Position numbers and translations under genes: made by a program
Shown here: one piece after another, positions 3,791 to 39,064 of the stretch
Numbering within the stretch: the stretch's first letter is position 1
Layout: each line of letters opens with the position of its first letter
Notes under the pieces: generated by a model
Told to the model about the DNA's origin: nothing
Databases searched by the model: none
The model's input: the letters and a program-made list of their open reading frames with translations, nothing else
NCBI GenBank assembly: GCA_030683155.1
Contig: JAUXMV010000101.1
Span: forward strand, 1-64,000
From: Bacteroidales bacterium
GTDB taxonomy: Bacteria; Bacteroidota; Bacteroidia; Bacteroidales; F082
Length of the DNA: 64,000 nucleotides
Direction of reading: 5' to 3'

Positions 3791-5110
3791 ATGCGCCATT
3801 CCGCCATTTCAAAAGAACTTTTTTCTAAAAACAGGATGCGTTTCTGTGACGAGCTCGCATCAGGAGATATTTCATTGTTTGTGGCAGCCGAAAAAATGCC
3901 CCGAAACGGTGATCAGTATTATCCTTTCCGGCAGCAATCAGATTTTTTTTATCTCACCGGAGTTGAACAAGAAAGTTGCACCCTATTGCTTTTTCCCACA
4001 TGCCCTAACCTTGCTTATCGCGAAATTCTTTTTATTGAGCCATGGGACCCCGTTAAAGCAACCTGGGAAGGACATATGCTTACCAAGCAAGAAGCATCGG
4101 AAATTTCAGGAATAAAAAATATTTACACAACAGATCAGTTTGAGGCTGTTCTTCACGAATGCATGACATATGCCAAAAATGTGTATCTAAATAATAATGA
4201 GTACGTTAAATTCAATCCTTCCAACGAAAGTGTTCAGCTTAGATTTGCCAAAAAGTTGAAAGAAAAATATCCACTGCATGAATATTGCCGGGCAGCACCC
4301 ATTTTGGAATCATTGAGAACCCATAAGTTGATCGAAGAAATCGATCTCATAAAAAAAGCTTGTGAAATAACAGAAAAAGCCTTTGAAAGAGTCCTTAAAA
4401 CTGTAAGGCCAAATATGTATGAGTTTGAAATTGAGGCTGAAATTTCACATGAATTTACCGTCAACAGAGCCAACGGTCATGGCTATCATCCAATCATTGG
4501 CAGTGGACAAAACGCATGTGTGTTGCATTACAATGACAACAACAGCATGATGGAAGACGGCGATCTGTTGTTAATGGATTTTGGCGCGGAATACGCCAAC
4601 TATACGGCTGATCTTAGCCGGACTATTCCGGTAAACGGAAAATTTAATCCAAGGCAACGTGCTTGTTATGAAGCTGTTTTAAGCGTTTTCAAGGCGGCAA
4701 AACCTTTATATGTAGCAGGAAATACAATAGAGAAAATAAATGAAACTGTCTGGGCTTTGATGGAACAGGAGATGATTGGGCTGGGACTTTTCTCCGAGGA
4801 AGATTTAAAGAAACAAAGTCCGAATGCACCTCTTTTCCGAAAATACCTTATGCACGGAATTGCCCATCATATAGGACTTGATGTGCATGATGTAGGTTCA
4901 AAATACACCCCACTAAAACCCGGAATGATACTTACCTGCGAGCCGGGGCTCTACATCCGCGAGGAAAAAATTGGCATACGCATCGAAAACGATATTCTGA
5001 TCACTGAGGAAGGTCCCGTGGATCTTATGGCCAATATACCAGTTGAAGCAGATGAAATTGAACAAAGAATGTTGAATTCCAAAGTTGTTGACCTTTCAAA
5101 AGAAATTTAG
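3791..5110 (+). CDS. Xaa-Pro aminopeptidase (M24B, aminopeptidase P), first copy
   Basis: A 439-aa cytoplasmic metallopeptidase that removes N-terminal residues preceding proline. It has the N-terminal AMP_N domain (about 1-160) and a C-terminal pita-bread domain. The five dinuclear-metal ligands can be read: D263 (LLLMDFG), D274 (YTADLSRT), H359 in HGIAHHIGLDVHD, E384 (LTCEPG) and E399 (IRIEND). No signal peptide is seen. Length matches E. coli PepP (about 440 aa). A second M24B gene follows after 133 nt in the same direction; the upstream 160 nt is AT-rich and shared with the divergent sdh operon. Confidence 0.93.
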   Translation: MRHSAISKELFSKNRMRFCDELASGDISLFVAAEKMPRNGDQYYPFRQQSDFFYLTGVEQESCTLLLFPTCPNLAYREILFIEPWDPVKATWEGHMLTKQEASEISGIKNIYTTDQFEAVLHECMTYAKNVYLNNNEYVKFNPSNESVQLRFAKKLKEKYPLHEYCRAAPILESLRTHKLIEEIDLIKKACEITEKAFERVLKTVRPNMYEFEIEAEISHEFTVNRANGHGYHPIIGSGQNACVLHYNDNNSMMEDGDLLLMDFGAEYANYTADLSRTIPVNGKFNPRQRACYEAVLSVFKAAKPLYVAGNTIEKINETVWALMEQEMIGLGLFSEEDLKKQSPNAPLFRKYLMHGIAHHIGLDVHDVGSKYTPLKPGMILTCEPGLYIREEKIGIRIENDILITEEGPVDLMANIPVEADEIEQRMLNSKVVDLSKEI

Positions 5111-5243: not shown

Positions 5244-6665
5244 ATGTTTGAAAAAATCGTTTATGCAGACCGCAGAAGCCGACTCAAAAGAGAAATCAGT
5301 CAAGGCGTCGCGTTATTTCTATCCAATCCGGAAGCCTCCTTTAATTATCCTGCCAACACTTACCATTATCGACAAGACAGTCATTTTTCCTATTTCTTTG
5401 GTATTAACCATCCGGGTTTTGCCGGCTGGATAGATTTTGAATCCGGTGAAGAAATACTTTTTGGCAATGATGTGGATATTGATGACATCATCTGGATGGG
5501 GCCACAGCCCTCAGTAGCTGATCAGGCAGCTGAAGTCGGCATCACGAAAACTCTCACTTACAGTCAGTTAACAGATTTTGTAAAAAAAGCCCTCAGTCAG
5601 GGCAGAAAAATTCAATTCCTGCCGCCCTATCGTGGAAAAGTTATGATAGAGCTTGGACAACTGCTGAACCTTCCTGCCCATGAAGTGAGAGCAGCGGCCA
5701 GTGTTGAACTCATCAAAGCAGTTGTAAAACTGAAGGAAATCAAAGATGCTTTGGAGATATCAGAAATTGAAAAAGCAGTTGACATTGCATGGCTGATGCA
5801 TACCACTGCCATGAAAATGGCTAAACCCGGAATGGTAGAACAGGAAATCGCCGGCACAATTGAAGGAATTTCACTCGCTTTGGGTGGCCCTGTTTCATTT
5901 CCAATAATCCTGAGTGTTGACGGGCAAACTTTGCACAACCACAATCACCATAACATCCTTAAAGAGGGTCGCATGCTTGTGGTTGATGCAGGTGCTGAGT
6001 TGCATTCGCTCTATTCAAGCGATATTACACGTACCGTTCCTGTGGGTGGAAAGTTTAACCAAAGGCAAAAGGAAATTTACGAAATTGTACTGAAAGCCAA
6101 TGTTGACAGCATAGCCGCCATAAAACCCGGCCACGAATACCGCGAAATGCATCTGCTTGCTGCCCGTGTAATCACCGAAGGACTTAAATCTGTCGGTCTG
6201 ATGAAAGGTGACGTTGATGAAGCCGTTGCTGCCGGCGCTCATACCCTGTTTTTCCCACATGGTCTTGGACATATGATGGGAATGGATGTGCATGATCTGG
6301 AAAGTCTGGGCGAAAATTATGTTGGCTACGACGAACACACGCAACGAGCAACTCAATTCGGAACTGCATATCTGCGCTTAGGAAAAAAACTCAAACCTGG
6401 TTTCGTACTCACCAATGAACCAGGTATTTACTTTATTCCTGCGCTTATCGACAAATTCAGGTCTGAAGGCAAATTCACCGAATTTGTAAACTATGATAAA
6501 GTTGAAACTTACAAAGACTTTGGTGGAATCCGCATCGAAGATGATATTCTTGTCACAGAATCAGGGCATCGCATCCTTGGAAAGGCAATTCCAAAAAGCG
6601 TTGCCGATGTGGAAACAACTGCTGCTGAAACCCGCGAATGGATAAAATATCCTGGAATTTTTTAG
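5244..6665 (+). CDS. Xaa-Pro aminopeptidase family protein (M24B), second copy
   Basis: A 473-aa homologue of the preceding gene, with an AMP_N domain and a catalytic domain. Metal ligands are D248 (VVDAGAE), D260 (SSDITRT), H343 (HGLGHMMGMDVHD), E392 (TNEPGIYF) and E432 (GGIRIEDD). Compared with its neighbour it has an insertion of about 30 residues between the EPG and IRIEDD motifs (about 399-426), which may shape the substrate pocket. The two proteins are clearly diverged, so this is an old paralogue pair, not a recent duplication. A terminator follows. Confidence 0.92.
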   Translation: MFEKIVYADRRSRLKREISQGVALFLSNPEASFNYPANTYHYRQDSHFSYFFGINHPGFAGWIDFESGEEILFGNDVDIDDIIWMGPQPSVADQAAEVGITKTLTYSQLTDFVKKALSQGRKIQFLPPYRGKVMIELGQLLNLPAHEVRAAASVELIKAVVKLKEIKDALEISEIEKAVDIAWLMHTTAMKMAKPGMVEQEIAGTIEGISLALGGPVSFPIILSVDGQTLHNHNHHNILKEGRMLVVDAGAELHSLYSSDITRTVPVGGKFNQRQKEIYEIVLKANVDSIAAIKPGHEYREMHLLAARVITEGLKSVGLMKGDVDEAVAAGAHTLFFPHGLGHMMGMDVHDLESLGENYVGYDEHTQRATQFGTAYLRLGKKLKPGFVLTNEPGIYFIPALIDKFRSEGKFTEFVNYDKVETYKDFGGIRIEDDILVTESGHRILGKAIPKSVADVETTAAETREWIKYPGIF

Positions 6666-11632: not shown

Positions 11633-12463
11633 TTATTTCAATTTCTTCATGGATTGTTTATGACTTAAAAGCGATTTCATCTGCATGATAGCCATTTGAT
11701 TAAGCTGAATTAGCCTTTCACTTTGTTCCATACCTTGATGAATCAACAAAGCATTGGTGCTTTCCATGTTGGATAAAACAACCAATTGCTCTATTGTGGC
11801 ATAATCACGGATATTTCCCTTTTGGTCAGGGCTTTCATCACGCCATTGTTTGGCTGTTTTTCCAAACAGTGCCATATTCAAAACATCTGCTTCATTGGCA
11901 TAGATATATGAGGCTTGTTGTTTACTGATTTCAGTCGGAATCAAGTTCTCTTTGATGGCATCGGTATGGATATGGTAATTGACTTTGGCAAGAGTACGCT
12001 GGAAATTCCATTCGAGTTTTAGATGATCACTTTCACTTTCTTTTAGTCGTTGGAATTCTTTGATTAAATAAAGTTTAAATTCTGCACTAATTGCCGACCC
12101 AAATTCAAATGCAATGTCTTTATGAGCATAGGTTCCACCATATCTGCCAGCTTTTGAAAAAATTCCAATTGCATTGGTTCTTTCTACCCATTGAGTTGGA
12201 CTTAAAACAAAAGATGGTAAGCCTGCCTGTGATTTAAAGTGGTCAAATTCGACCACTTTAAAATTAGCGTTATAGATTTTTTCCCAGGTACCTAAAAATT
12301 CAAGTGTTGTGCGAGTTCTTATCCAGTTTTTGATAACATCAGCGGCACGGCTAGAATCTGATTTTGCTTGTGCCATATCAGTTATGCAAATAAAATCTTC
12401 GCCATTTATTGCAGTTACTGAAACTGCATTAGTTTGAACATTTATTATTTTGTTTTTAGCCAT
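11633..12463 (-). CDS. KilA-N domain protein
   Basis: A 276-aa protein whose N-terminal about 130 residues match the KilA-N DNA-binding domain of phage and plasmid proteins: a strand region with FICITDMAQ, an NWIRTRTTLEFLGTWE segment, and RYGGTYAHKDIAFEFGSAI. The C-terminal half is mostly helical with a Met/Gln-rich tail (about 245-276). Free-standing chromosomal KilA-N genes usually derive from phages. No other phage gene is seen here, so this is probably a domesticated or leftover singleton. It is read towards the alpha/beta hydrolase gene. Function unknown. Confidence 0.82.
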   Translation of the reverse strand: MAKNKIINVQTNAVSVTAINGEDFICITDMAQAKSDSSRAADVIKNWIRTRTTLEFLGTWEKIYNANFKVVEFDHFKSQAGLPSFVLSPTQWVERTNAIGIFSKAGRYGGTYAHKDIAFEFGSAISAEFKLYLIKEFQRLKESESDHLKLEWNFQRTLAKVNYHIHTDAIKENLIPTEISKQQASYIYANEADVLNMALFGKTAKQWRDESPDQKGNIRDYATIEQLVVLSNMESTNALLIHQGMEQSERLIQLNQMAIMQMKSLLSHKQSMKKLK

Positions 12464-12662: not shown

Positions 12663-15600
12663 TTAAGGCTCGGCATCAGGCTTCACAGTTATCACAGAAA
12701 TCCGTTTTTTTCCATCCATGCGAACAGTAAGGTATTCATTAAAACGCACATGTCTGAAAAATTTGGTTTGCTGAACGAGCCTTTGTTTGTCGAGTAAGTC
12801 ATAATTGATGCTGCTGTTCGACAATTCTGGTTGCACAGTGAAATAACCCACATTCATTGAGGTCACATTATGGAAAAAGTGAGAGCCAGAAGATGCATCT
12901 AAAGGAAAATCATCAAGGCTTGTTTCAACAATTACTTTAGCCTGACTTATCTGCGGCCAGTTTACCGGAATCCCAATCCATCGGTCTCGTGTACCCCATC
13001 GGCCGGGGCCGATTAAAACATATGGTCGTTTCTGGTTCATCATCTCCTCGTTCAGGACACTTATTTCACGCGCCATTTCCTCGGTGTATCTTTTGTCAAA
13101 CGCATTTTTTTCAACATAAATCACATCCTTCACATCCCTTATCACCCCATTTCCCATGCCTTTATCGGAGTATAACAGGATATCCTCATCCCGAATTTCG
13201 TTCATGTTGACAACATAATCTTCGGCACTTCCAAGCAATGGCTTGATCTGTAACAAGTAAAATGAACAATGACCATGTTCATCTCTGTCGAGGTCAAGCG
13301 CCCATTCTATCTCCACTGCCGAACCAAGCGCTTCTTTTACCACATCGAGCACAATTTCAAGTGTTTGTGCAAGAGGCGTATAATTATATTTCAAGATATT
13401 GGCAAAATTTACGATCCTCGTGCCTGATTTGCTCAATCCCGGATAAATAGTGTTGTTGTCGGGATTGTAGACTGAAGCAGTGTGCCTGAGAGAGCTGTGT
13501 TCTTCGGCCACACTCAGATCAAGCCGAACCAGTCCAGCCATATCACCTTCCAAAAGATTTGGTTCAGTGCAATCAAGATCAACAGCAAGAAAATAAGATT
13601 GCGAGTTTTTTACCTGATCTTTAGGTGAATTGATATCAAGATTGGGATATTTTGGCGAAAACCGATAAGCCTTTTCGCCCTCTACAACATATTTTCCAAG
13701 CCCAAGTGCGGCTATTGCAAAGCCTTCTTCAGGCGTCATATGTGCAAATGGATAATAATTGTAAGATTGAGCAACACCGCTGACATGCGGATAATAGTAA
13801 CGGCCAAATTGCTTCCCAACTAGCTCCTGAATGACCACAGCCATCTTTTCCTGATCAATTTTGTAATTGATCGCATTCACGTAACCACGGGCAATATCTG
13901 AATATACCGAAGCAAAAACAAGCTTAATGGCATCAGAAATTTGTTGCAATCTCACTTCAATATCCGCATGGCTGTTGGGTAATATGTAGGTTTCAAAAAT
14001 TCCGGCAAAAGGTTGCGCCATGCTGTCTTCAAACAGCCCTGAAGAGCGCACGGCAATCGGACGTGTGATTACTTTCAGCAATGTTTTCAAGCGTCGCATG
14101 AGTGTTGGCGAAAGTTTGCATTCTACAAAAGCTTTTTTGATAAGGTCGTAATTGGTTTCTGCCAAAACAAAATCATGGAGTTTATTGCGTTCCATGAAAA
14201 TAGTAAACTCTTCAGTGCCAATCAATGAGGTCTTAGGCGCCCGAATTTTGATGTCAGACACATGTTGCAAAAAATCATAGTTGTAAATGAGTGAATTGAT
14301 GAAAGCCAGACCGCGACCTTTGCCTCCAAGACTTCCCTCAACCAGACTAACGATATTCTTTTCGTTGCCAATAGACTCTTCATCAAAAGGGATAATTTTT
14401 CCGGTGTCCTGTTCATTTCTGAACTGTTGAATCATTCTTAAAAGCTCTTTTCGAAGCTCATCCGGATCCTTGAAATCTGCTACTTTTTTAGGATTAATAA
14501 TCTTTGCAACCCTGATTTCACCGCGCGCCATCAGCCAAAGCGAAAAATGGTTCCTCTGCGCATGATAAAGCAACGACTCATCAGGAATAGTGCGCAGTTT
14601 GGCTTCAAATTCCTTAAGCGTGCGTGCCTGAGTTATAGGATTTCCAAATTGGTCGCGATAAACAAAGTTTCCAAAACCTAAAAAATGAGTGATAAAACTT
14701 TGAAAATCCTGTGAAAGCGTCTCACTGTTTTTATCGATGAAAGTCGATTTATAATGGTATGCAATCTTAACGTTTTCCTGCTCAGATGACTGAATGATGA
14801 CCGGTAGATCGGGAATAAGCGATTTGGCATATTCAACGAGATCGATGCCTGCATGCTCATCTTTCACATCGTTGCGATCGAAACGAATGTCAGTAATCAG
14901 ACAAAGCATATATTCCCGATATTTTAACATGATCTGACATGCTTCCTCATAAGAACTTGCAAGCAATATTTTCGGACGCGCCCTCATCCTAAGCACTTTA
15001 TATAATTCATCTGTACTCACGTCATCGATTATGCGACGGGTTTGCTCCATCACGGTTTTATAAAGCATCGGCAGGTATCGCGAATAATACATGGGCGAAT
15101 CCTCAACAAGAAGAATCACCCTTACAAGACCCACTCTGGTATCATTAACTACATTAATGCGATCTTCAACCATTTTGATCATGCTGAAAAACACGCTTGA
15201 GTCGCCATTCCATGTAAAAAGACGATCAATCGACAAGGTTTCGCGGCTTACCTTGCTGAAAAAAGCAATATCAGCATTGCTGTTTAAGAGGAAAAAAATT
15301 GGTAAGCTGGGAAAGTCTTTTTTGATCTTTCGACTCAGTTCGACAGGCGTCTTTTTGTCAACACTCACCATAAAAATGACAAGATCAAAATACTTCGAAC
15401 GAAGCATTTCAAATGCTTCTGTTGAGGTTGTTACGCCGGTGATGCGTGGCACTGAAGTAAGATTCAGTTGATGATAATGACCCAACACATGTTCAGAAAA
15501 ACGCCCCTCACGCTCTATTGAATAAGCATCATAAAGGTTTGAAATTAACAGGATTTCCTTCACCTTGAAGTTCATCAGATCGTGGTAAATATCACGATCG

Positions 15601-16133
15601 GCATTGTTTTTATTTAGAAATAGCTGAAGCAGTTTTCGACTGTGAACCTGTTCTTCATCTTTAGAAATGGTTGTCTTTCTTTCTTTGTCATCAGTGCTTT
15701 TTTCGATAATTGTTAAACCTTTATAGGTATTCAGATATCCACTGATCATATTGGTGAGGTTCAGCAGCAGATCGCGTTCTTCTTCAAGAAACGGCCCTTC
15801 GTCCATCACAGGATACTCTTTTGTGTAGCAAATTTCAACAAATCCTGTGTTGCCATCGAAAGTGGAAAAATCCTGCTTTTGATGCCAGGGCGTCAATTCA
15901 AAATTTGATGAAAGGTAATAAGTACCATCATACATAATGCGTGCTCCTGTAAAGGCAGGATATTGCCAACCCGCCGGAAGCACCATTGCAATATATTTGA
16001 GTGTCTCGTCAGGACTCCTGTTTTCACGAATAATATGACTGGTTCTGTTAAGTATCGCGAGCTCTTTGAGTCGTTCAAGATTTTGCGCTTTGAGTCGCTC
16101 AAACTGGCCACCAAGGTCATTTTCTGGTATCAT
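12663..16133 (-). CDS. GAF/receiver/PEP-synthase-like ATP-grasp fusion protein
   Basis: This 1156-aa protein has an unusual domain order. Residues 1-140 look GAF-like and begin with a coiled segment. Residues about 190-330 resemble a response-regulator receiver in which Met255 (DLVIFM) stands at the phospho-acceptor position. Residues about 338-490 form a second receiver that looks intact: E344/D345 (LLVEDSP), D415 (LCLITD), K468 (FIDK). From about 595 to 1090 comes a pyruvate/PEP-synthase-type ATP-binding domain, with GSLGGKGRGL near 600-609 and RPIAVRSSGLFEDS at 692-705. The swivelling phosphohistidine domain and PEP/pyruvate TIM barrel of real PEP synthase are absent. It may be a phospho-regulated ATP-dependent enzyme or a signalling protein. 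It is divergent from the LuxR-type gene at 16380. Confidence 0.85.
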   Translation of the reverse strand: MIPENDLGGQFERLKAQNLERLKELAILNRTSHIIRENRSPDETLKYIAMVLPAGWQYPAFTGARIMYDGTYYLSSNFELTPWHQKQDFSTFDGNTGFVEICYTKEYPVMDEGPFLEEERDLLLNLTNMISGYLNTYKGLTIIEKSTDDKERKTTISKDEEQVHSRKLLQLFLNKNNADRDIYHDLMNFKVKEILLISNLYDAYSIEREGRFSEHVLGHYHQLNLTSVPRITGVTTSTEAFEMLRSKYFDLVIFMVSVDKKTPVELSRKIKKDFPSLPIFFLLNSNADIAFFSKVSRETLSIDRLFTWNGDSSVFFSMIKMVEDRINVVNDTRVGLVRVILLVEDSPMYYSRYLPMLYKTVMEQTRRIIDDVSTDELYKVLRMRARPKILLASSYEEACQIMLKYREYMLCLITDIRFDRNDVKDEHAGIDLVEYAKSLIPDLPVIIQSSEQENVKIAYHYKSTFIDKNSETLSQDFQSFITHFLGFGNFVYRDQFGNPITQARTLKEFEAKLRTIPDESLLYHAQRNHFSLWLMARGEIRVAKIINPKKVADFKDPDELRKELLRMIQQFRNEQDTGKIIPFDEESIGNEKNIVSLVEGSLGGKGRGLAFINSLIYNYDFLQHVSDIKIRAPKTSLIGTEEFTIFMERNKLHDFVLAETNYDLIKKAFVECKLSPTLMRRLKTLLKVITRPIAVRSSGLFEDSMAQPFAGIFETYILPNSHADIEVRLQQISDAIKLVFASVYSDIARGYVNAINYKIDQEKMAVVIQELVGKQFGRYYYPHVSGVAQSYNYYPFAHMTPEEGFAIAALGLGKYVVEGEKAYRFSPKYPNLDINSPKDQVKNSQSYFLAVDLDCTEPNLLEGDMAGLVRLDLSVAEEHSSLRHTASVYNPDNNTIYPGLSKSGTRIVNFANILKYNYTPLAQTLEIVLDVVKEALGSAVEIEWALDLDRDEHGHCSFYLLQIKPLLGSAEDYVVNMNEIRDEDILLYSDKGMGNGVIRDVKDVIYVEKNAFDKRYTEEMAREISVLNEEMMNQKRPYVLIGPGRWGTRDRWIGIPVNWPQISQAKVIVETSLDDFPLDASSGSHFFHNVTSMNVGYFTVQPELSNSSINYDLLDKQRLVQQTKFFRHVRFNEYLTVRMDGKKRISVITVKPDAEP

Positions 16134-16379: not shown

Positions 16380-17039
16380 ATGGACAAAATAAATGTCGCT
16401 TTTATTGATGAGCATCCCATTATGTGTGATGCCTTGATTGCACTTCTGTCAGATGTTGACGATGTTGCAATTGTTCACAGCTCAAGAGATACCAAAGAAG
16501 CCAGCCGAAAGCTTCTTCTTGAGCCGGCACACATCATTTTGATGGTACTCTACAAACCTGATCCTGAAGATGCTGAACTCGTGAAATACCTCAGCAATAA
16601 GTTTCCGCGCAGCAGCGTGCTGATTCTTTCGATGTATAAAATCGAAAATCTCATCTTCAAAATGATTAAAGCCGGCGCAAAAGGACATCTGACAAGCGAA
16701 ACCAACCGCGAGGAGATTGTTGAAGCCATTTATACTTTGCGCAATGGATATGACTTTTATGCCAAAACCATTACCAATATGATTTTGCGCAATTATCTGA
16801 ACAACGATCAGGAAGCCGAAGCCAGAAAAGAGCGTGAAAAGAGCCTCTCGACAAGAGAAATGGAGGTGTTAAAGCTTTTTGCACATAGTTTTACCAATAA
16901 GGAAATTGCCGACAGACTATTTATCAGCGTAAGAACAGTTGAATCGCACAAGAACAATATCATGCGCAAAATAAACCTGAAAACTACAGTTGATATGGTA
17001 AAATTTGCTATCCGGAATAATATAATCGACTTATATTAA
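16380..17039 (+). CDS. LuxR/NarL-family regulator with degenerate receiver
   Basis: The 219-aa protein has a receiver-like domain (1-125) and a C-terminal LuxR helix-turn-helix (about 150-215) with LSTREMEVLKLFAHSFTNKE and VRTVESHKNNIMRK. The receiver keeps the acidic pair as IDEHP. Where the phosphorylated Asp is expected (PDVVLLD in typical members) it reads PAHIILM, and the usual switch Lys is also missing (GHLTSE instead of GYLLK). It therefore probably cannot be phosphorylated in the standard way. It sits 246 nt from, and divergent to, the GAF/receiver/ATP-grasp gene, so the two may work together (inference). Confidence 0.87.
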   Translation: MDKINVAFIDEHPIMCDALIALLSDVDDVAIVHSSRDTKEASRKLLLEPAHIILMVLYKPDPEDAELVKYLSNKFPRSSVLILSMYKIENLIFKMIKAGAKGHLTSETNREEIVEAIYTLRNGYDFYAKTITNMILRNYLNNDQEAEARKEREKSLSTREMEVLKLFAHSFTNKEIADRLFISVRTVESHKNNIMRKINLKTTVDMVKFAIRNNIIDLY

Positions 17040-17100: not shown

Positions 17101-18009
17101 TCAGAGCAGTTTAAGTAACAGATCTTCCTCAAAATGTTGACTTACTTTGGCAGGATTTTCTGCAAAAACCAACATATAACCTCCACCACCAGAACCACAT
17201 AACTTCATTGTGAAATCACCAGATTCCAATCCAAGACGCCATTTACTTTCCAAATGTGCCGGAATCATTGGCTTAAGATGGTTTAACTGAAAATCTGATA
17301 TTTGTTTTACGGCCAAAACAAGTTGATCTGTTTCATTTGTGAGTATACCTTCAATCGCTTGATTGACTGCTGGAATATAACTTTGATCCAGCTTTTTGAA
17401 AAACCTAAAGGTGTGCATTTCCTGATGAAAATATTCGACCAAAGGCCCTGTTTTGGCTGTTGTTTTGCTATCAACTAAAAAAACACTTAAGCCTGTTTGC
17501 GGAAGGTTGAAATCAACAAAATTCACTTGTTTATTTTCATCAATCAAAATGGGATTGGCAAGCAGACAGGCCAATGGATCGAGTCCCGAACTATTTCCGT
17601 GAAAGTAGGATTCAAGCAAAGCAAGTTTGCTTTGCAATAACGGTAGATCATCCGTTATTTTCTCTGCTGAAAATCGTTCATATGCAGCGGCAACAAGGGC
17701 TCCTGAACTTCCGGCACCATAGCCTTGTGGAATGCTGGAGTCAAAATATAGTCCCTCTTCCAAATCATTTCTGAAAAGTTCTGTATTGAGTAGCGCTGAA
17801 GTTGAAGGATTTGATGAAATATGATTGCACCATGACTTCAGATCCAATATTGATTGCCGGATAGACTCTGAAACATCATCTCCAACTGTTTTGTTCCAAC
17901 CAGCACTGAAACGTTGAAACGGGATTACCAATGCTTTGGAACCTACGATCACACTGTATTCGCCAAAAAGCATGATCTTGCCAAAATATTTTTTTTCTGT
18001 TATTTTCAA
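17101..18009 (-). CDS. mvk: mevalonate kinase (GHMP kinase family)
   Basis: About 302 aa if translation starts at the TTG at 18009, which overlaps the stop codon of the upstream gene in a TTGA arrangement and begins directly at KITEKKYFGKIMLFGEYS. A TTG 39 nt further upstream would give 315 aa but overlaps the decarboxylase by 43 nt. GHMP motifs are visible: the N-terminal GEYSVIVGSKAL, the ATP loop PQGYGAGSSGALVAA, and the C-terminal CGSGGGGYML. It is last in the operon HMG-CoA reductase, GYDIA kinase, decarboxylase, and mevalonate phosphorylation is the remaining step, which supports the assignment. The family alone would not prove it. Confidence 0.82.
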   Translation of the reverse strand: MKITEKKYFGKIMLFGEYSVIVGSKALVIPFQRFSAGWNKTVGDDVSESIRQSILDLKSWCNHISSNPSTSALLNTELFRNDLEEGLYFDSSIPQGYGAGSSGALVAAAYERFSAEKITDDLPLLQSKLALLESYFHGNSSGLDPLACLLANPILIDENKQVNFVDFNLPQTGLSVFLVDSKTTAKTGPLVEYFHQEMHTFRFFKKLDQSYIPAVNQAIEGILTNETDQLVLAVKQISDFQLNHLKPMIPAHLESKWRLGLESGDFTMKLCGSGGGGYMLVFAENPAKVSQHFEEDLLLKLL

Positions 18010-19121
18010 CTGTTCAAAGCAATTGGAGAAGGTCCGCTTCCAACACAATCGTCAATCCAACTCTGGTTTTGACAGTAATGCAAAAGTTCATTTCTGATAA
18101 AATCTGTTACCTCATTTGAATAATTCTCAGGGTACAAAACGTGCAAATTCGGACCTGCGTCTAAGGTAAAAGAAACAGGAATACCCGTTTCATTTCTAAA
18201 CGACCTCAAAGCACTTATTGCTGCAAGGCTTTCGGGCTGCATCAGAATAAAAGAAGGTTTGGAGGTCATCATCAAGGCATGCAACTGAAGTGCTTCAGCC
18301 TCTGCAATATCAATAAAAGCTTCAAGATCACCCGTTTTTAAAGCGTTTAGAAGGTCGCCGGTATTTTTATTAGCTTGCTCATAACGCGCAGCTGCAAAGG
18401 GATTTCCTTCCATCAAGGCATGCCCTGCCCTGCTGGAAACAGGCTTGGTTCCAGAACTGATGATTAATATACTATCGCGGAAAGTTTTAAAAACCGGATG
18501 CAATATTTGCGCTAAAGGAATCGCAAATTCATCACTGCTTTCAGGGACTTCATCAGTTTTACCCCAAAGACCGGCATAAGGAAATACAGAACGGGCAGCA
18601 CTTCCTGAGCCTAACCTCGAAAAATAAGATGCCTTACGCAAAAACATTGCAGTGTCTGTTGAGAAATTGCTGATTTGTTTTTCAATTTCCATCAAACACA
18701 TCACCAAAGCACTCATGGAAGATGCAGAGGAGGCAATTCCTGATGAATGTGGAAATGTGTTTTTGCTTTCAATGCTAAGATGCAAATGGTTCAGGAAAGG
18801 AAAAACAGGAAGAATACTTTGCATGAAAGTCAATATTTTTTGACCGAAAGCCGCATTTGGCATTCCTTCAAAAAAGAAATCAAGAGAAACACCCCTTGTC
18901 GGTTTATAGTGATAACGTATTGAAGTCTCGCTTCTTGCATGGCTTAAAGTGAAACTTACTGAAGGGTTATTTGGCAGCTGATTTCCATGCTTTCCCCAAT
19001 ATTTTACAATGGCAATGTTGGAAGGACTTTGCCAGGCAACACTGCCTTCTAACGATTTTCCTGACTGAAGTTCCAGTGCATTTTTCTGATAAAACTGAAA
19101 CAATGATTCTTCAACAGTCAT
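18006..19121 (-). CDS. mvaD: diphosphomevalonate decarboxylase
   Basis: The 371-aa enzyme makes isopentenyl diphosphate by ATP-driven decarboxylation of mevalonate diphosphate. The family signature near residue 31 is SNIAIVKYWGKHGNQLPNNP; the GHMP ATP loop is HSSGIASSASSMSA (about 125-138), and SFTLDAGPNLHVLYPEN appears near the C-terminus. The lysine and acidic residues of IVKYWGK are those expected at the active site. It starts 4 nt after the GYDIA kinase stop and its stop overlaps the mevalonate kinase start, indicating translational coupling. Confidence 0.95.
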   Translation of the reverse strand: MTVEESLFQFYQKNALELQSGKSLEGSVAWQSPSNIAIVKYWGKHGNQLPNNPSVSFTLSHARSETSIRYHYKPTRGVSLDFFFEGMPNAAFGQKILTFMQSILPVFPFLNHLHLSIESKNTFPHSSGIASSASSMSALVMCLMEIEKQISNFSTDTAMFLRKASYFSRLGSGSAARSVFPYAGLWGKTDEVPESSDEFAIPLAQILHPVFKTFRDSILIISSGTKPVSSRAGHALMEGNPFAAARYEQANKNTGDLLNALKTGDLEAFIDIAEAEALQLHALMMTSKPSFILMQPESLAAISALRSFRNETGIPVSFTLDAGPNLHVLYPENYSNEVTDFIRNELLHYCQNQSWIDDCVGSGPSPIALNS

Positions 19122-19125
19122 TTTT

Positions 19126-20061
19126 TTATTTTATTAGCGCGTGATATTCGAAAAATGTATTCAAGCCCTGAGAGGAAAAATATTCCGCAACATACTCTTT
19201 TCCAGCATCCGACATTGCAAGCAAAAAGTCACCGCCCCAGGCACCCAACGATTTTAAATGACCATTGAAATCCGGAAAGTAATGCTTCAAAACAGGCTGA
19301 AGAAGGATTCCTGAAAGCAAGGCTTCGTGCCTGTTCATCAGATTGCAGAAGGTTTCGAAGCTTTGGGTTGTTGCAGCCTCGTTACTTATTGCACTTATTT
19401 CGTCGATTGCTTTAGAAAGATCCTGCCCTTCAGTCATTTCATTGAAAGACCTGATACCCTGACTGCTGTCTTTCTTTTGACCTCGATAGACAAAAAACAA
19501 CTTATCATCAAAAACCGGATTAAAATTTGCTTTTTTAACTTCAGGTTTGAGCAGGTTGAGACGGTAAAAGAGCGGGCTTTGAGCATTGGCACATGCGATA
19601 TCGTATCCCGAGCCACCAAGAGAAAAATTCAGTAAAGTGTATGGATCAATTTTTGCCCATTTTGCAAGATTGGCAATGAGTGTGGAGCTTGAACCAAGAC
19701 CCCATTCAGGTTCAAAACCAAGTCTGGTAATGACTTTATAGCTGGTTTTTCCGTCAAAAAGTTCAGGCTTGAGCTGCTTTAAGGTAAGCAGAATCAATTG
19801 CAGTTTCGCACTTTTGGGTCTGTCGTCAGTAGCGATAATATCAATATCAGGTAATTCAAAAGTGGTTTTAAACCACCGTTTTTCAGGAGCAAAAGCAAAC
19901 CATGTTATATGTGGATGGCCCGAACCTTCGAAGGATTCTATTTCAAGTGTCTGACCTAAATTTACAGGAAGTGCAAGTGCATTTGCACCGCGCAGCACAA
20001 GGTATTCTCCGGTAAGGAGTAACTTGCCATTGGAAGTGAAAAGCTGCATTTGTTGCGACAT
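19126..20061 (-). CDS. GYDIA-family GHMP kinase (probable phosphomevalonate kinase step)
   Basis: A 311-aa GHMP-superfamily protein. The start SNGKLLLTGEYLVLRGANAL is typical. The ATP loop region is GLGSSSTLIANLAKW (about 136-150), and the motif GGSGYDIACANA gives the family its name. In this operon mevalonate kinase, diphosphomevalonate decarboxylase and HMG-CoA reductase are accounted for, so the missing step is phosphomevalonate to diphosphomevalonate. That is an inference from context; I do not see the classical phosphomevalonate kinase signatures. The ATG overlaps the upstream TAA by one base (TAATG). Confidence 0.85.
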   Translation of the reverse strand: MSQQMQLFTSNGKLLLTGEYLVLRGANALALPVNLGQTLEIESFEGSGHPHITWFAFAPEKRWFKTTFELPDIDIIATDDRPKSAKLQLILLTLKQLKPELFDGKTSYKVITRLGFEPEWGLGSSSTLIANLAKWAKIDPYTLLNFSLGGSGYDIACANAQSPLFYRLNLLKPEVKKANFNPVFDDKLFFVYRGQKKDSSQGIRSFNEMTEGQDLSKAIDEISAISNEAATTQSFETFCNLMNRHEALLSGILLQPVLKHYFPDFNGHLKSLGAWGGDFLLAMSDAGKEYVAEYFSSQGLNTFFEYHALIK

Positions 20062-21389
20062 TATTTTCTCAAAGAAGCGATGTATTGACCGACGCTGGAA
20101 AAAGACACCTTTTGATCTTTAAAGTGCTCGACTGCGGCATTCTTTTCATTATCGCTTGCTTTGAAGTGATTGAGGATATTGAAAAGGTGCATTTTCATAT
20201 GCCCGGCCTGTATCCCCTTTGTAGTCAATGACTTCACGGCGGAGAAATTGTTTGCAATACCCATCACGGAAGCAATCATCATGAGTTCACGTGCCGAAGG
20301 ATTTCCTAAAAGCTCAAGCGATTGTTTTGCCAGAGGATGCAAACTGGTCAATCCACCTACAGTTCCAACGGCCATCGGTACTTCAAGAATAAAACGGAAA
20401 GTGTCGTTTTCGATCTCAACATAAGAAAGGCTTTTGTATTTTCCTGTGCGCGTGGCATAAGCATGTCCTGCAGCCTCAATGGCTCTGAAATCGTTTCCGG
20501 TAGCAATGGCAACGGAATCGATGCCGTTGTAAATTCCTTTATTATGTGTTGTTGCGCGATACACATCCACTTCAGCAATTTTGACTGCTTTCTCAAATTT
20601 TCGGGCAAACGCTTCACCATTGAGTTTTTCATCAATATTATCAAGTTGATCTAACTTGCATTCAACCCATGTTTTAACAACACATTCAGGTGTATAATTT
20701 GAGAGAATGGCCATGATGATTTCGCACTGCCGATGCTCATCAGACAAATGTATCTGTTCGGAAAGGAAAACCTTTAGTGTCTGACCAAATTCTTCGAGCA
20801 CAGAGTTAATGAAGTTGGCCCCCATTGAATCTTTTGTCTCAAAAGTGACCAGAAACTGATAATAATCTGCAATCTGATCGGTCATATCAATGAGTTCAAT
20901 ATCCAGAATACCTCCACCCCGTTTTTCCATGTTTGCGGTGATGGCACTCACTGATTCTATCAATCTTCTTTTCAGTGATGGAAGCATTGTGAAAAGCACA
21001 TGACTTTCGCCACTCCAGCTGAAATGAACCTGACCGACCTTTTTTGTATCAAGAATTTCTGAATGAAAACCTCCTCTTTCGCTCCAGAACTTTGCCGCAG
21101 CAGAGGCCGCTGCCACAACAGAACTTTCTTCTATCACCATAGGAACCAAATAATTACGTCCGTTTATGACAACATTTGGAGCGATCCCATAAGGAATGTA
21201 GAAGTTGGTAATAGTATTTTCGCTGAATTCATCAAAAAGCTTTTGCTGATCCACATCAGAATGCCAGAAACTTTTTAGTAAACTGACCACCTCACCAGGA
21301 TTTTCGAAATACTCAGCTACCAGCTTAAGTTTTTCTTCCTTTAAAAGCTTGGAAAAGCCACTGATGATGATGTCTCTTTTTCTTCTCAT
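20061..21389 (-). CDS. mvaA: hydroxymethylglutaryl-CoA reductase, class II
   Basis: The 442-aa enzyme converts HMG-CoA to mevalonate. Class II bacterial-type features are visible: the catalytic Glu region with YLVPMVIEESSVVAAASAAA, the DSMGANFINSVLE motif (about 190-202) with the catalytic Asp, and HNKGIYNGIDSVAIATGND with the catalytic Lys near 276. No membrane domain is present, as expected for class II. It is the first gene of the mevalonate operon. The upstream 357 nt (21390-21746) hold no convincing gene. Direction of reaction is taken from the pathway context, since Pseudomonas-like class II enzymes work in mevalonate degradation. Confidence 0.95.
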   Translation of the reverse strand: MRRKRDIIISGFSKLLKEEKLKLVAEYFENPGEVVSLLKSFWHSDVDQQKLFDEFSENTITNFYIPYGIAPNVVINGRNYLVPMVIEESSVVAAASAAAKFWSERGGFHSEILDTKKVGQVHFSWSGESHVLFTMLPSLKRRLIESVSAITANMEKRGGGILDIELIDMTDQIADYYQFLVTFETKDSMGANFINSVLEEFGQTLKVFLSEQIHLSDEHRQCEIIMAILSNYTPECVVKTWVECKLDQLDNIDEKLNGEAFARKFEKAVKIAEVDVYRATTHNKGIYNGIDSVAIATGNDFRAIEAAGHAYATRTGKYKSLSYVEIENDTFRFILEVPMAVGTVGGLTSLHPLAKQSLELLGNPSARELMMIASVMGIANNFSAVKSLTTKGIQAGHMKMHLFNILNHFKASDNEKNAAVEHFKDQKVSFSSVGQYIASLRK

Positions 21390-36336: not shown

Positions 36337-36553
36337 TCTTGCGGTTTTAAACTTTTATTGAAAAGCACTTACAAATACTGCTAAAAGATGTGTAATGAGC
36401 TCTATTACTATACTTTACAAAAATCTTCTGCAAAGACATTTTTCAAGCGCTGAATATTTAACGACAAAAGTAAGACAATTCCAACATCAAATTACCTTTA
36501 AAGTAGATGAAAGAATTAACTTTGTGGCGTTTAAGATATTTATCACAATCATT

Positions 36554-39064
36554 ATGAACAGAATTCTTTACCTGATCATCGGATTATTTCTGATGCAGCA
36601 CGTTATTGGGCAAACGGATACAAGCAATCTTGTGCCGCAAATTATTTTGCCTTCAGTAGTGCTGTCAGAGTCCGATTTCGAAGGCGGAAGCGCCTCAACT
36701 GACATCTCCGGCCTTTTACAATCATCGCGGGATATTTTTGTTTCCACAGCCGGCTTTAATTTTGGATCCCTGCGATACCGCATGCGTGGCTACGATTCAG
36801 AAAACACCATGGTTCTTTTCAACGGTGTCGCCATGAACGACCTTGAAACCGGCAGGGCCTCCTGGTCGAGCTGGGGAGGTTTAAACGATGCTGTCAGAAA
36901 CACCGAAATCAGCAATGGCATCACTACCTCCGACTGGGGTTTTGGGGGTGTTGGTGGCGTTACAAATATTCTTGCCCGTGCAGGAAGTTACCGCAAAGCC
37001 ACCAATATTAGTTATGCTGCTTCAAACAGAAGTTACAACAACCGTCTGATGTTCCTTTATGCAACGGGCATGCAGGAAAACGGATGGGCGTTTGCTCTTT
37101 CAGGCTCCCGGCGCTGGTCCCAGGAAGGCTATGTACCCGGAACATTTTATGATGCCTGGGCTTACTATTTATCTGCAGAAAAAAAGATCAACAATCAGCA
37201 CAGCCTTGGAATCATCGCTTTTGCGGCACCCACGCAACGTGGCTATTCTGGCATATCCGTTCAGGAAGCCTACGACCTTTCAGGTTCAAATTATTACAAT
37301 GCCAACTGGGGGTATCAAAATGGTGAAGTACGAAATGCTCGTGTAAGCAATTACCATCAACCAATGATTCAGCTTTCCCACTATTGGACTCCTGCCGAAA
37401 AAACAAAAATTCAGACCACAGTATATCATTGGTTTGGCAGAGGCGGCGCAACTGCCCTTGATTGGAACGAAGCCAACGATCCACGACCTGATTATTACAG
37501 AAACCTTCCAAGCTACTGGCTTCAAAGAGGTGATATGGATAATTATAATTATTACCTTGATCAATGGCAGAACAATGAGGAGTCCAGGCAGATGCAGTGG
37601 GATCATTTTTATTTTGCTAACAGTAAAAATCTTGCAACAGTAAACAATGCCAATGGTATTCAGGGCAATAAGGTTACCGGAAACAAGTCAAAATATATTG
37701 TCGAAGACAGAAGAATGGACAAAAATCAACTGGGTTTAAACATCAACGCCCAACATCAGCTGAATGCCAAAACAAGATTGACAGGTGGTGCCTTGCTTAC
37801 TAGTGCAAAAACACGTCATCACAAAAGGCTGGCTGATTTATTGGGAGGCGATTTTTGGTTAGATATTGATAAGTATTCTGATCAGGAACCATTTCAAATT
37901 ACAAATGCGTCCCAAAACGACCTCAGAAACCCAAACAGGATTGTGAAAGAAGGCGATATCTTCGGATATGATTATTACGCCAACACAAACAATGCACGCC
38001 TTTGGGGTCAGGCAGAAATGAAGATTTCGCGCTTTGAGTTATTTGCCTCTGCAGAAATAAGTTATACTGAATTCTGGCGCACAGGCAATATGCAAAACGG
38101 AAGATTTCCAGATAATTCTTACGGAGATTCTGAAAAAAACACCTTCCTCAATTACGGAATTAAAGCAGGTGCCACCTATGCAATTGACGGCCGCAATTAT
38201 ATTGTTGCCAATGCCGGATATCTCACCAGAGCGCCCTATTTCAGGGATTCTTATATTTCACCCCGAACACGCGATTTCGTTGTTGACGGTCTAAAAAGCG
38301 AAACCGTAATGGCAGGCGATATCAGCTATATTTTGCGTGCGCCAAACCTTAAAGCCAGAGTCACACTCTATCAGGCACAAATGCTCGACAACCTTTGGGT
38401 TAGAAGTTATTACCACGAAGATTTGCGAAATTTTGTAAATTATATTATGTCCGACCTCGATCAAATGAGCCAGGGAATTGAATTTGGTGCCGAAGCAAAT
38501 CTTTCGCCAACACTTTCTGTTCAAGCCATTTTAGGCCATGGACGCAATGTAATTTCCAACAGACCAAATGTTACTATTGCCGAAGATAACAACGCCACAC
38601 TTTTAGCTGAAAACCGTGTTGTTTATCTCAAAAACTATTATGTTGGAGGCTCACCTCAAACAATCGCATCTGCAGGCTTCAGATACAATTCACCAAAATT
38701 TTGGTTTGCCGGTGTTAATGGTAACTATTATGACAATGCTTATCTCGAAGCTAATCCGGATAATCACACAGCTGAAGCAATGCGTTTGTATGCCGAAGGA
38801 GATGTAAGAATTGAAAAGCTGCTGAAACAACGAAAAATCGATCCGGGGTTCACCCTCGACTTTTTTGGAGGAAAATCATGGCTTATCAAGGGAAAAACCA
38901 TTTTGCTCAACGTGAGTGTTAACAATATTCTCAACCGCAAAGATCTTGTGATCTGGGGTTTTGAGCAACTAAGGACAGACCTTAACGACCCAGGCAGGTT
39001 TCCTGAAAAATATTCCTATATGTATGGAACCACTTATTTCATCAATCTGGGCTTTAGACTTTAA
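36554..39064 (+). CDS. TonB-dependent outer-membrane receptor
   Basis: An 836-aa protein with a signal peptide ending at about residue 19 (HVIGQ). A plug domain follows (about 30-160) with LRYRMRGYDSENTMVLFNGV and a long barrel ending in YFINLGFRL with a terminal aromatic-rich strand. It lacks the carboxypeptidase-like N-terminal domain of SusC proteins. The start at MNRILYL is chosen because the frame upstream carries 53 residues with no signal character. The multidomain lipoprotein gene follows after 31 nt, so they form an operon, with the EEP enzyme divergent. Cargo is unknown; nucleotides or nucleic acid fragments are a reasonable guess. Confidence 0.88.
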   Translation: MNRILYLIIGLFLMQHVIGQTDTSNLVPQIILPSVVLSESDFEGGSASTDISGLLQSSRDIFVSTAGFNFGSLRYRMRGYDSENTMVLFNGVAMNDLETGRASWSSWGGLNDAVRNTEISNGITTSDWGFGGVGGVTNILARAGSYRKATNISYAASNRSYNNRLMFLYATGMQENGWAFALSGSRRWSQEGYVPGTFYDAWAYYLSAEKKINNQHSLGIIAFAAPTQRGYSGISVQEAYDLSGSNYYNANWGYQNGEVRNARVSNYHQPMIQLSHYWTPAEKTKIQTTVYHWFGRGGATALDWNEANDPRPDYYRNLPSYWLQRGDMDNYNYYLDQWQNNEESRQMQWDHFYFANSKNLATVNNANGIQGNKVTGNKSKYIVEDRRMDKNQLGLNINAQHQLNAKTRLTGGALLTSAKTRHHKRLADLLGGDFWLDIDKYSDQEPFQITNASQNDLRNPNRIVKEGDIFGYDYYANTNNARLWGQAEMKISRFELFASAEISYTEFWRTGNMQNGRFPDNSYGDSEKNTFLNYGIKAGATYAIDGRNYIVANAGYLTRAPYFRDSYISPRTRDFVVDGLKSETVMAGDISYILRAPNLKARVTLYQAQMLDNLWVRSYYHEDLRNFVNYIMSDLDQMSQGIEFGAEANLSPTLSVQAILGHGRNVISNRPNVTIAEDNNATLLAENRVVYLKNYYVGGSPQTIASAGFRYNSPKFWFAGVNGNYYDNAYLEANPDNHTAEAMRLYAEGDVRIEKLLKQRKIDPGFTLDFFGGKSWLIKGKTILLNVSVNNILNRKDLVIWGFEQLRTDLNDPGRFPEKYSYMYGTTYFINLGFRL

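Follow-up and report, generated by a model that had tools for sequence, protein, structure and literature searches.

The subject of this analysis is a gene located at positions 12663-16133 of a 64,000-nucleotide stretch of DNA from a Bacteroidales bacterium (contig JAUXMV010000101.1; the whole stretch is called the window below). It codes for a protein of 1156 amino acids, in which signalling domains precede an ATP-grasp domain of the phosphoenolpyruvate (PEP) synthase type. Relatives of the gene usually adjoin genes for glutamate dehydrogenase (GDH), an arrangement that points to a so far unstudied phospho-switch acting on nitrogen and carbon metabolism. The interpretation that we prefer, and consider about as likely to be right as wrong, is a dikinase that is gated by its receivers, phosphorylates itself and acts on the GDH node, comparable to VadK of Mycobacterium tuberculosis.

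According to this interpretation the protein would belong to the PEP synthase/pyruvate phosphate dikinase (PPDK) superfamily, and would have lost the pyruvate-binding barrel and kept the carrier domain in disguise. The ATP-grasp domain would move a phosphoryl group from ATP onto His1085 of a swivelling C-terminal domain. Whether the transfer occurs would be decided by the tandem receivers and the GAF-like segment, with D415 of the second receiver (REC2) phosphorylated by a separate kinase. The phosphorylated form would then modify, or bind and tune, GDH or a closely tied glutamate/2-oxoglutarate step. We infer the phosphorylation of His1085, the control by the receivers and the identity of GDH as the target.

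Domain organization and the ATP-grasp domain

The open reading frame (ORF) fills the interval 12663-16133 exactly on the minus strand, with the ATG start codon at 16133 and the stop codon at 12663-12665; the plus-strand translation is full of stops. The original prediction gave the same coordinates and left the strand unstated. A chance ORF can be dismissed because the frame is conserved over its full length, with identity up to 75%, among the best 80 of the 586 relatives found in a scan of named genomes. The record titles of these 80 include Bacteroidales, Marinifilum, Labilibaculum, Draconibacterium, Spirochaetes, Geothrix, Holophagaceae, Cloacimonadota, Marinimicrobia and Riflebacteria. The family is widespread in Bacteroidota, Spirochaetes, Acidobacteria and Cloacimonadota, with the caveat that metagenome bins may be misassigned.

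The domain order is GAF-like segment, degenerate receiver, intact receiver, PPDK_N ATP-grasp domain and C-terminal domain. Three types of family members were distinguished by matched length. Type A proteins carry receivers and have about 1000-1150 amino acids, type B proteins (about 580 amino acids) consist of the ATP-grasp and C-terminal domains only, and type C proteins have the ATP-grasp and C-terminal domains without a receiver, with a nucleotidyltransferase-like tail in five of the seven that were aligned.

The ATP-grasp domain (about residues 592-968; 13230-14360, minus strand) was delimited from Pfam, structure comparison and residue conservation. Pfam PPDK_N matched residues 600-980 with an E-value of 2.7e-35 and 122.7 bits (cut-off 27). 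In an alignment of 58 relatives, which is the source of all conservation counts out of 58 given here, K605, R696, E702, D703, E941, E943 and Q962 are invariant (58/58), and position 964 carries either Lys (42 sequences) or Arg (16). Several residues of the set K605, R696, E941, E943 and Q962 are presumably the catalytic positions of PPDK. Because these putative catalytic residues are invariant, the domain looks active, and the PEP-synthase-type ATP-grasp domain of the original prediction is confirmed.

A Pfam scan of the 1156-residue protein detected neither PEP-utilizers (PF00391) nor PEP-utilizers_C (PF02896), and NCBIfam returned only partial matches to PEP synthases, far under their cut-offs. 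No complete PEP-synthase layout is thus seen with these profiles, and the claim that the PEP/pyruvate TIM barrel is missing was borne out. In the source genome (completeness 98.6%) the only occurrence of the barrel (PF02896) is in a separate full-length PPDK. The absence of the barrel from the protein also supports the broader idea of a signal-controlled enzyme with an intact ATP-grasp domain that probably phosphorylates a target other than pyruvate.

The C-terminal domain as a candidate phosphohistidine carrier

The C-terminal domain (residues 970-1156; 12666-13226, minus strand) contains the motifs GPGRWG and GSHFF, whose core residues are invariant across types A, B and C. The original prediction stated that the phosphohistidine part was missing. 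This holds for sequence profiles only and is probably wrong, as structure comparison places a carrier fold in residues 970-1156.

When the domain (170 amino acids) was predicted alone, the model had a pLDDT of 92.2 and a pTM of 0.90. In a structure ranking among 1000 chains the first row was the NMR structure of the PPDK phosphoryl-carrier domain, 2fm4 (Z 7.1, 117 residues aligned, 3.5 Å), and nine of the top ten rows were PPDKs or the Staphylococcus aureus pyruvate kinase 3t05. The aligned stretch of 3t05 (469-583) is what we take to be a PEP-utiliser-like domain. The AlphaFold2 model of the whole protein (pLDDT 83.7, pTM 0.65) aligned to PEP synthase 2ols from residue 593 to 1152 (chain 10-467, Z 25.1, 359 residues aligned, 4.5 Å) and to PPDK 1dik from residue 582 to 1154 (chain 2-513, Z 18.2, 352 residues aligned, 5.2 Å). 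Fewer residues were aligned with rifampin phosphotransferase (RPH), 257-277, covering the ATP-grasp part only.

The candidate carrier residue is His1085 (codon 12879-12881, minus strand), which is invariant in three alignments (58/58, 24/24 and 12/12) and is preceded by Ser in 45 and Thr in 13 of the 58 sequences. Characterised swivel domains have Ser or Cys before the catalytic His (PMC12167813). In the predicted model a strand and a loop are followed by a helix (1059-1062), a strand (1065-1071), a further loop, a helix (1085-1092) of which His1085 is the first residue, and a strand (1096-1100); this parallels the order read in the His-domain sequence of the PPDK of the source genome. Because the whole domain is covered by the match, the carrier position of PEP synthase is matched and the order of strands and helices agrees, the C-terminal domain probably has the PPDK carrier fold. 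That His1085 is the carrier residue is likely, at a somewhat lower level of confidence.

Several results weigh against this assignment. The PF00391 profile has no match in the protein. In hhalign comparisons with a His-domain profile, local and global and with two alignments, the probability was 0.1%; this profile was shallow, its nine sequences having been chosen by motif among 12 loci, three of which were dropped. Hmmsearch gave no alignment across the C-terminal domain, and the best Foldseek match of the domain alone was an unrelated protein (E 0.22). The Z of 7.1 obtained with 2fm4 lies under the caution level of 8, below which a match may reflect a common arrangement. Moreover, the equivalence of His1085 with the catalytic His derives from the predicted strand and helix order, not from a residue-level superposition. 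Of the approaches suggested in the original prediction, profile searches agree with the absence of a His domain, and structure prediction speaks against it.

These negative results suit a different explanation, close to the original one: the C-terminal domain could be a new fold or a target-binding domain, with the ATP-grasp domain acting directly on a protein or through an unrecognised partner. Dikinases are known in which the ATP-grasp part is a protein of its own (HpeI; PMC12167813). The structure ranking and the whole-model alignment favour the carrier fold, and a His-domain partner in trans was looked for without success. PF00391 had two matches in the source genome, both inside long proteins. 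In 20 further genomes with a family member it had 36, all in ORFs of 585-604 or 911-976 amino acids, which by their length would be phosphotransferase system enzyme I and PPDK; neither the source genome nor these 20 contained a stand-alone PF00391 protein. The recurrent partner in trans is GDH. We regard the new-fold explanation as rather improbable, and the carrier fold remains the preferred assignment.

Besides the full-length PPDK, the source genome encodes a paralog of the protein that lacks the N-terminal segment, and a further unusual dikinase-like protein of 1372 amino acids (L079:6942-11057, contig C4), with PPDK_N and, near the C-terminus, PEP-utilizers. About 880 N-terminal residues of the latter have no Pfam match.

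Linkage to glutamate dehydrogenase

GDH stands where carbon and nitrogen metabolism meet, and to our knowledge its control in many anaerobes is unclear. Linkage was counted in 54 genomes, which were all those with a family member: 49 of the 296 genomes sampled from the phylum (match at 1e-30) and five from another search. GDH matches below 225 bits were left out. Among the matches listed, 63 of 80 family members have a GDH gene within 5 kb, in 44 of the 54 genomes, and the linkage is seen with all three types (A 46/58, B 10/11, C 7/11). Conversely, 76 of 105 GDH genes have a family member within 5 kb, against about 0.6 expected if genomes of 3.7 Mb are assumed. Several genomes have a single cluster in which two type A genes are interleaved with two or three GDH genes. 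In the Marinifilum relatives L094, L096 and L099 the GDH gene is at a distance of about 200 bp. A divergent GDH gene was found within 1.5 kb of 14 of 28 GAF-type genes, a count for which eight genes with less than 2 kb upstream were set aside. The one GDH that was compared with solved structures appeared ordinary: the closest was 1bgv, the alignment spanned residues 2-445 of 446, and its lysine-rich and VPAGD stretches were free of gaps.

Neighbours were also counted at 99 loci, consisting of the best 80 of the 586 relatives, 18 hand-chosen loci and the window. GDH was present at 41 of them (29 of the 80 named, 12 of the 18 chosen, none in the window); this selection gives a biased rate, and the count in 54 genomes is the better one. 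Across 48 pairs, distances between GDH sequences correlated with those between the kinases (Mantel r 0.52, a value reached in none of 2000 permutations). Since common descent by itself can produce such a correlation, it was given no weight as evidence.

The linkage data also contain points that speak against GDH as the target. Among the matches listed, 17 of 80 members have no GDH gene within 5 kb. The window contig itself carries no GDH gene: the two GDH genes of the source genome lie on other contigs, one of them 37 kb from the paralog. The linkage is therefore a property of the family, not of the window copy, and a role of the window copy with GDH would follow from the family linkage only. 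In addition, gene proximity cannot separate a target from a pathway partner. At L083, the closest relative shown (75% identity), the LuxR-type regulator gene stands between GDH and the kinase gene. The window retains the regulator, but the genes that follow it match the mevalonate pathway.

The lack of a GDH neighbour would suit a decayed or unassigned PEP synthase paralog whose housekeeping role is unrelated to GDH. We give this very little credence: neither the catalytic residues nor His1085 vary between phyla, and the genome keeps a full PPDK separately.

More weight must be given to the possibility that GDH is a pathway neighbour and that the protein is a catalytic enzyme, whose phosphohistidine domain phosphorylates a small molecule of glutamate/2-oxoglutarate metabolism in the way of rifampin phosphotransferase and the phenol dikinases. 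Characterised dikinases phosphorylate small molecules (PMC12167813), and genes of POR/TPP oxoacid:ferredoxin oxidoreductase subunits adjoin at 14 and 16 of the 99 loci. On the other hand, the protein has no extra substrate-binding domain of the RPH or PPDK kind, the space being filled by receivers, and receiver and GAF-like inputs suit regulation better. On balance we judge a catalytic enzyme unlikely and keep to the regulation of the GDH node.

At some loci a protein with GAF-like and nucleotidyltransferase parts or a metallophosphoesterase is encoded next to the family member. The type C relatives L073, L074, L075, L076 and L078 have the nucleotidyltransferase tail, and several of them adjoin GDH and metallophosphoesterase genes. 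At L069/L070 a separate protein with GAF-like and nucleotidyltransferase parts is encoded between two type A genes, and L088 belongs to the same group of observations. These associations look like a second layer of covalent modification. A stronger form of our proposal, which we consider unlikely, is that of a widespread bacterial signalling system in which receiver-controlled dikinases, equipped with a hidden swivelling phosphohistidine domain, phosphorylate GDH directly, each paralog having its own GDH, and in which a further mark may be attached and taken off by the nucleotidyltransferase and the metallophosphoesterase. If true, this would be a nitrogen/carbon switch like the covalent-modification cascade of glutamine synthetase, built from PEP synthase parts.

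Receiver domains and N-terminal segment

The original prediction of tandem receivers, one degenerate and one intact, agreed with the data. The predicted structure matches the tandem-receiver protein PleD. Pfam found a single receiver match, below the cut-off, at residues 227-282. Receiver 1 (about residues 190-335; 15129-15566, minus strand), delimited with Pfam, alignment and the AlphaFold2 model, lacks the acceptor Asp: position 255, the acceptor place as read from strand 251-256, is Met in 52 of 58 sequences and Asp in none. Receiver 2 (about residues 337-491; 14661-15125, minus strand), supported by alignment and structure comparison, matches many receivers, including LuxO 5ep0 (Z 15.1, 118 residues aligned). 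It has the acidic pair, the acceptor Asp, the Ser/Thr and the Lys: E344 (58/58), D345 (54/58), D415 (57/58), S449 (58/58) and K468 (57/58); D415 and K468 had been named in the original prediction. The codon of D415, identified by translation and alignment as the predicted phospho-acceptor, is at 14889-14891 (minus strand).

An intact REC2 and a proposed phosphohistidine donor in a single chain raise the possibility of a one-polypeptide phosphorelay, in which the ATP-grasp and His domains would serve as an unusual histidine kinase for D415 of the same protein or of a partner, with output through the divergent LuxR-type regulator. Such a NarL/LuxR-type response regulator gene (16380-17039, plus strand) is divergent from the kinase gene in the window and beside its closest relatives, and is followed by GDH in L083. 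In other genomes a histidine kinase and a LuxR-type regulator are encoded between the tandem copies of some of the GDH clusters. The regulator, however, was found at a minority of loci (22/99), and types B and C have no receiver yet keep the ATP-grasp domain, the C-terminal domain and the GDH link, so that a receiver is not the acceptor throughout the family. We consider a phosphorelay quite improbable, though more likely than a decayed paralog. The persistence of the GDH link in the receiver-less types B and C argues that the core set consists of the ATP-grasp domain, the C-terminal domain and GDH, and that the receivers are an added input.

The N-terminal segment (residues 1-147; 15693-16133, minus strand) is tentatively assigned as a GAF-like sensor, and in relatives it is also fused to nucleotidyltransferase proteins. 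Pfam GAF was detected in one of 11 N-terminal segments (E 0.23) and not in the 1156-residue protein itself. The label GAF-like is used here, and GAF proper was not confirmed. Between the second receiver and the ATP-grasp domain there is a helical linker (about residues 501-590; 14364-14633, minus strand) resembling Pfam DUF5752. The match, at residues 501-576, is just under the cut-off here (21.7 versus 23) and above it in the relatives L117, L122 and L155. We know of no role of DUF5752 beside a dikinase.

Comparison with known dikinases

VadK (Rv1127c) is described as a PPDK without the pyruvate domain, which autophosphorylates on His422, co-precipitates with the enzymes encoded by neighbouring genes and tunes their flux, the mechanism being a working model of its authors (PMC13400623). 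The protein studied here is similarly PPDK-derived, with an ATP-grasp domain, a His domain (in our case predicted from a model) and no pyruvate/PEP domain. The VadK gene and most genes of the present family adjoin metabolic genes; VadK binds the encoded enzymes (PMC13400623), whereas here the relation is one of gene linkage. Unlike our protein, VadK is described without receiver and GAF-like domains and keeps a His domain of the PPDK type; its enzymes are those of the methylcitrate cycle, not GDH (PMC13400623).

With PEP synthase and PPDK themselves the protein shares the conserved ATP-grasp residues and a C-terminal domain located at the carrier-domain position with a predicted carrier fold. 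It differs from them in the absence of the PEP/pyruvate barrel, in the signalling domains in front, and in a carrier domain unrecognisable by sequence, with GSHFF in place of GGxTSHAA. HpeHI, CreHI and PpsAB also combine a PEP-synthase-type ATP-grasp domain with a swivelling His domain and act on a substrate other than pyruvate, but these systems are described as having the two domains on separate polypeptides, and phenols as substrates (PMC12167813).

The combination of receiver and PPDK as such is already known. A census of 2018 named 'Bacteroides-like' REC-PPDK combinations (PMC5847659), and a paper of 2015 had pointed out receivers without Asp in association with PPDK output domains (PMC4395418). 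These response regulators have the same combination as our protein; the entries are counts of domain combinations, and the passages drawn on here mention neither the C-terminal domain nor GDH. No prior description of the GDH link or of the hidden carrier domain was found in the literature, of which few subscription journals were covered.

With a conserved GDH-adjacent partner gene in several phyla, and with a testable phosphohistidine and receiver Asp, control of GDH by this family is directly testable. The proposal would carry the idea suggested by VadK, that dikinases have turned into enzyme regulators, beyond the mycobacteria and their relatives into a further large family, and would provide an example of a carrier domain invisible to sequence profiles.

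Other genes of the window

Directly downstream of the kinase gene lies a gene for a KilA-N domain protein (11633-12463, minus strand); no phage genes were noticed nearby. The mevalonate-pathway genes mentioned above (17101-21389, minus strand) comprise, according to Pfam, HMG-CoA reductase and diphosphomevalonate decarboxylase, in a Bacteroidales-like genome, and two further ORFs of the cluster read like GHMP kinases, with no Pfam match at 1e-6. Two adjacent genes of the M24/aminopeptidase P type, unequal in length, are located at 3791-5110 and 5244-6665 (plus strand). An ORF of 889 amino acids (36395-39064, plus strand) has no Pfam match at 1e-6, and its neighbour, an ORF of 872 amino acids, contains DUF6359, DUF5689 and DUF5017 domains.

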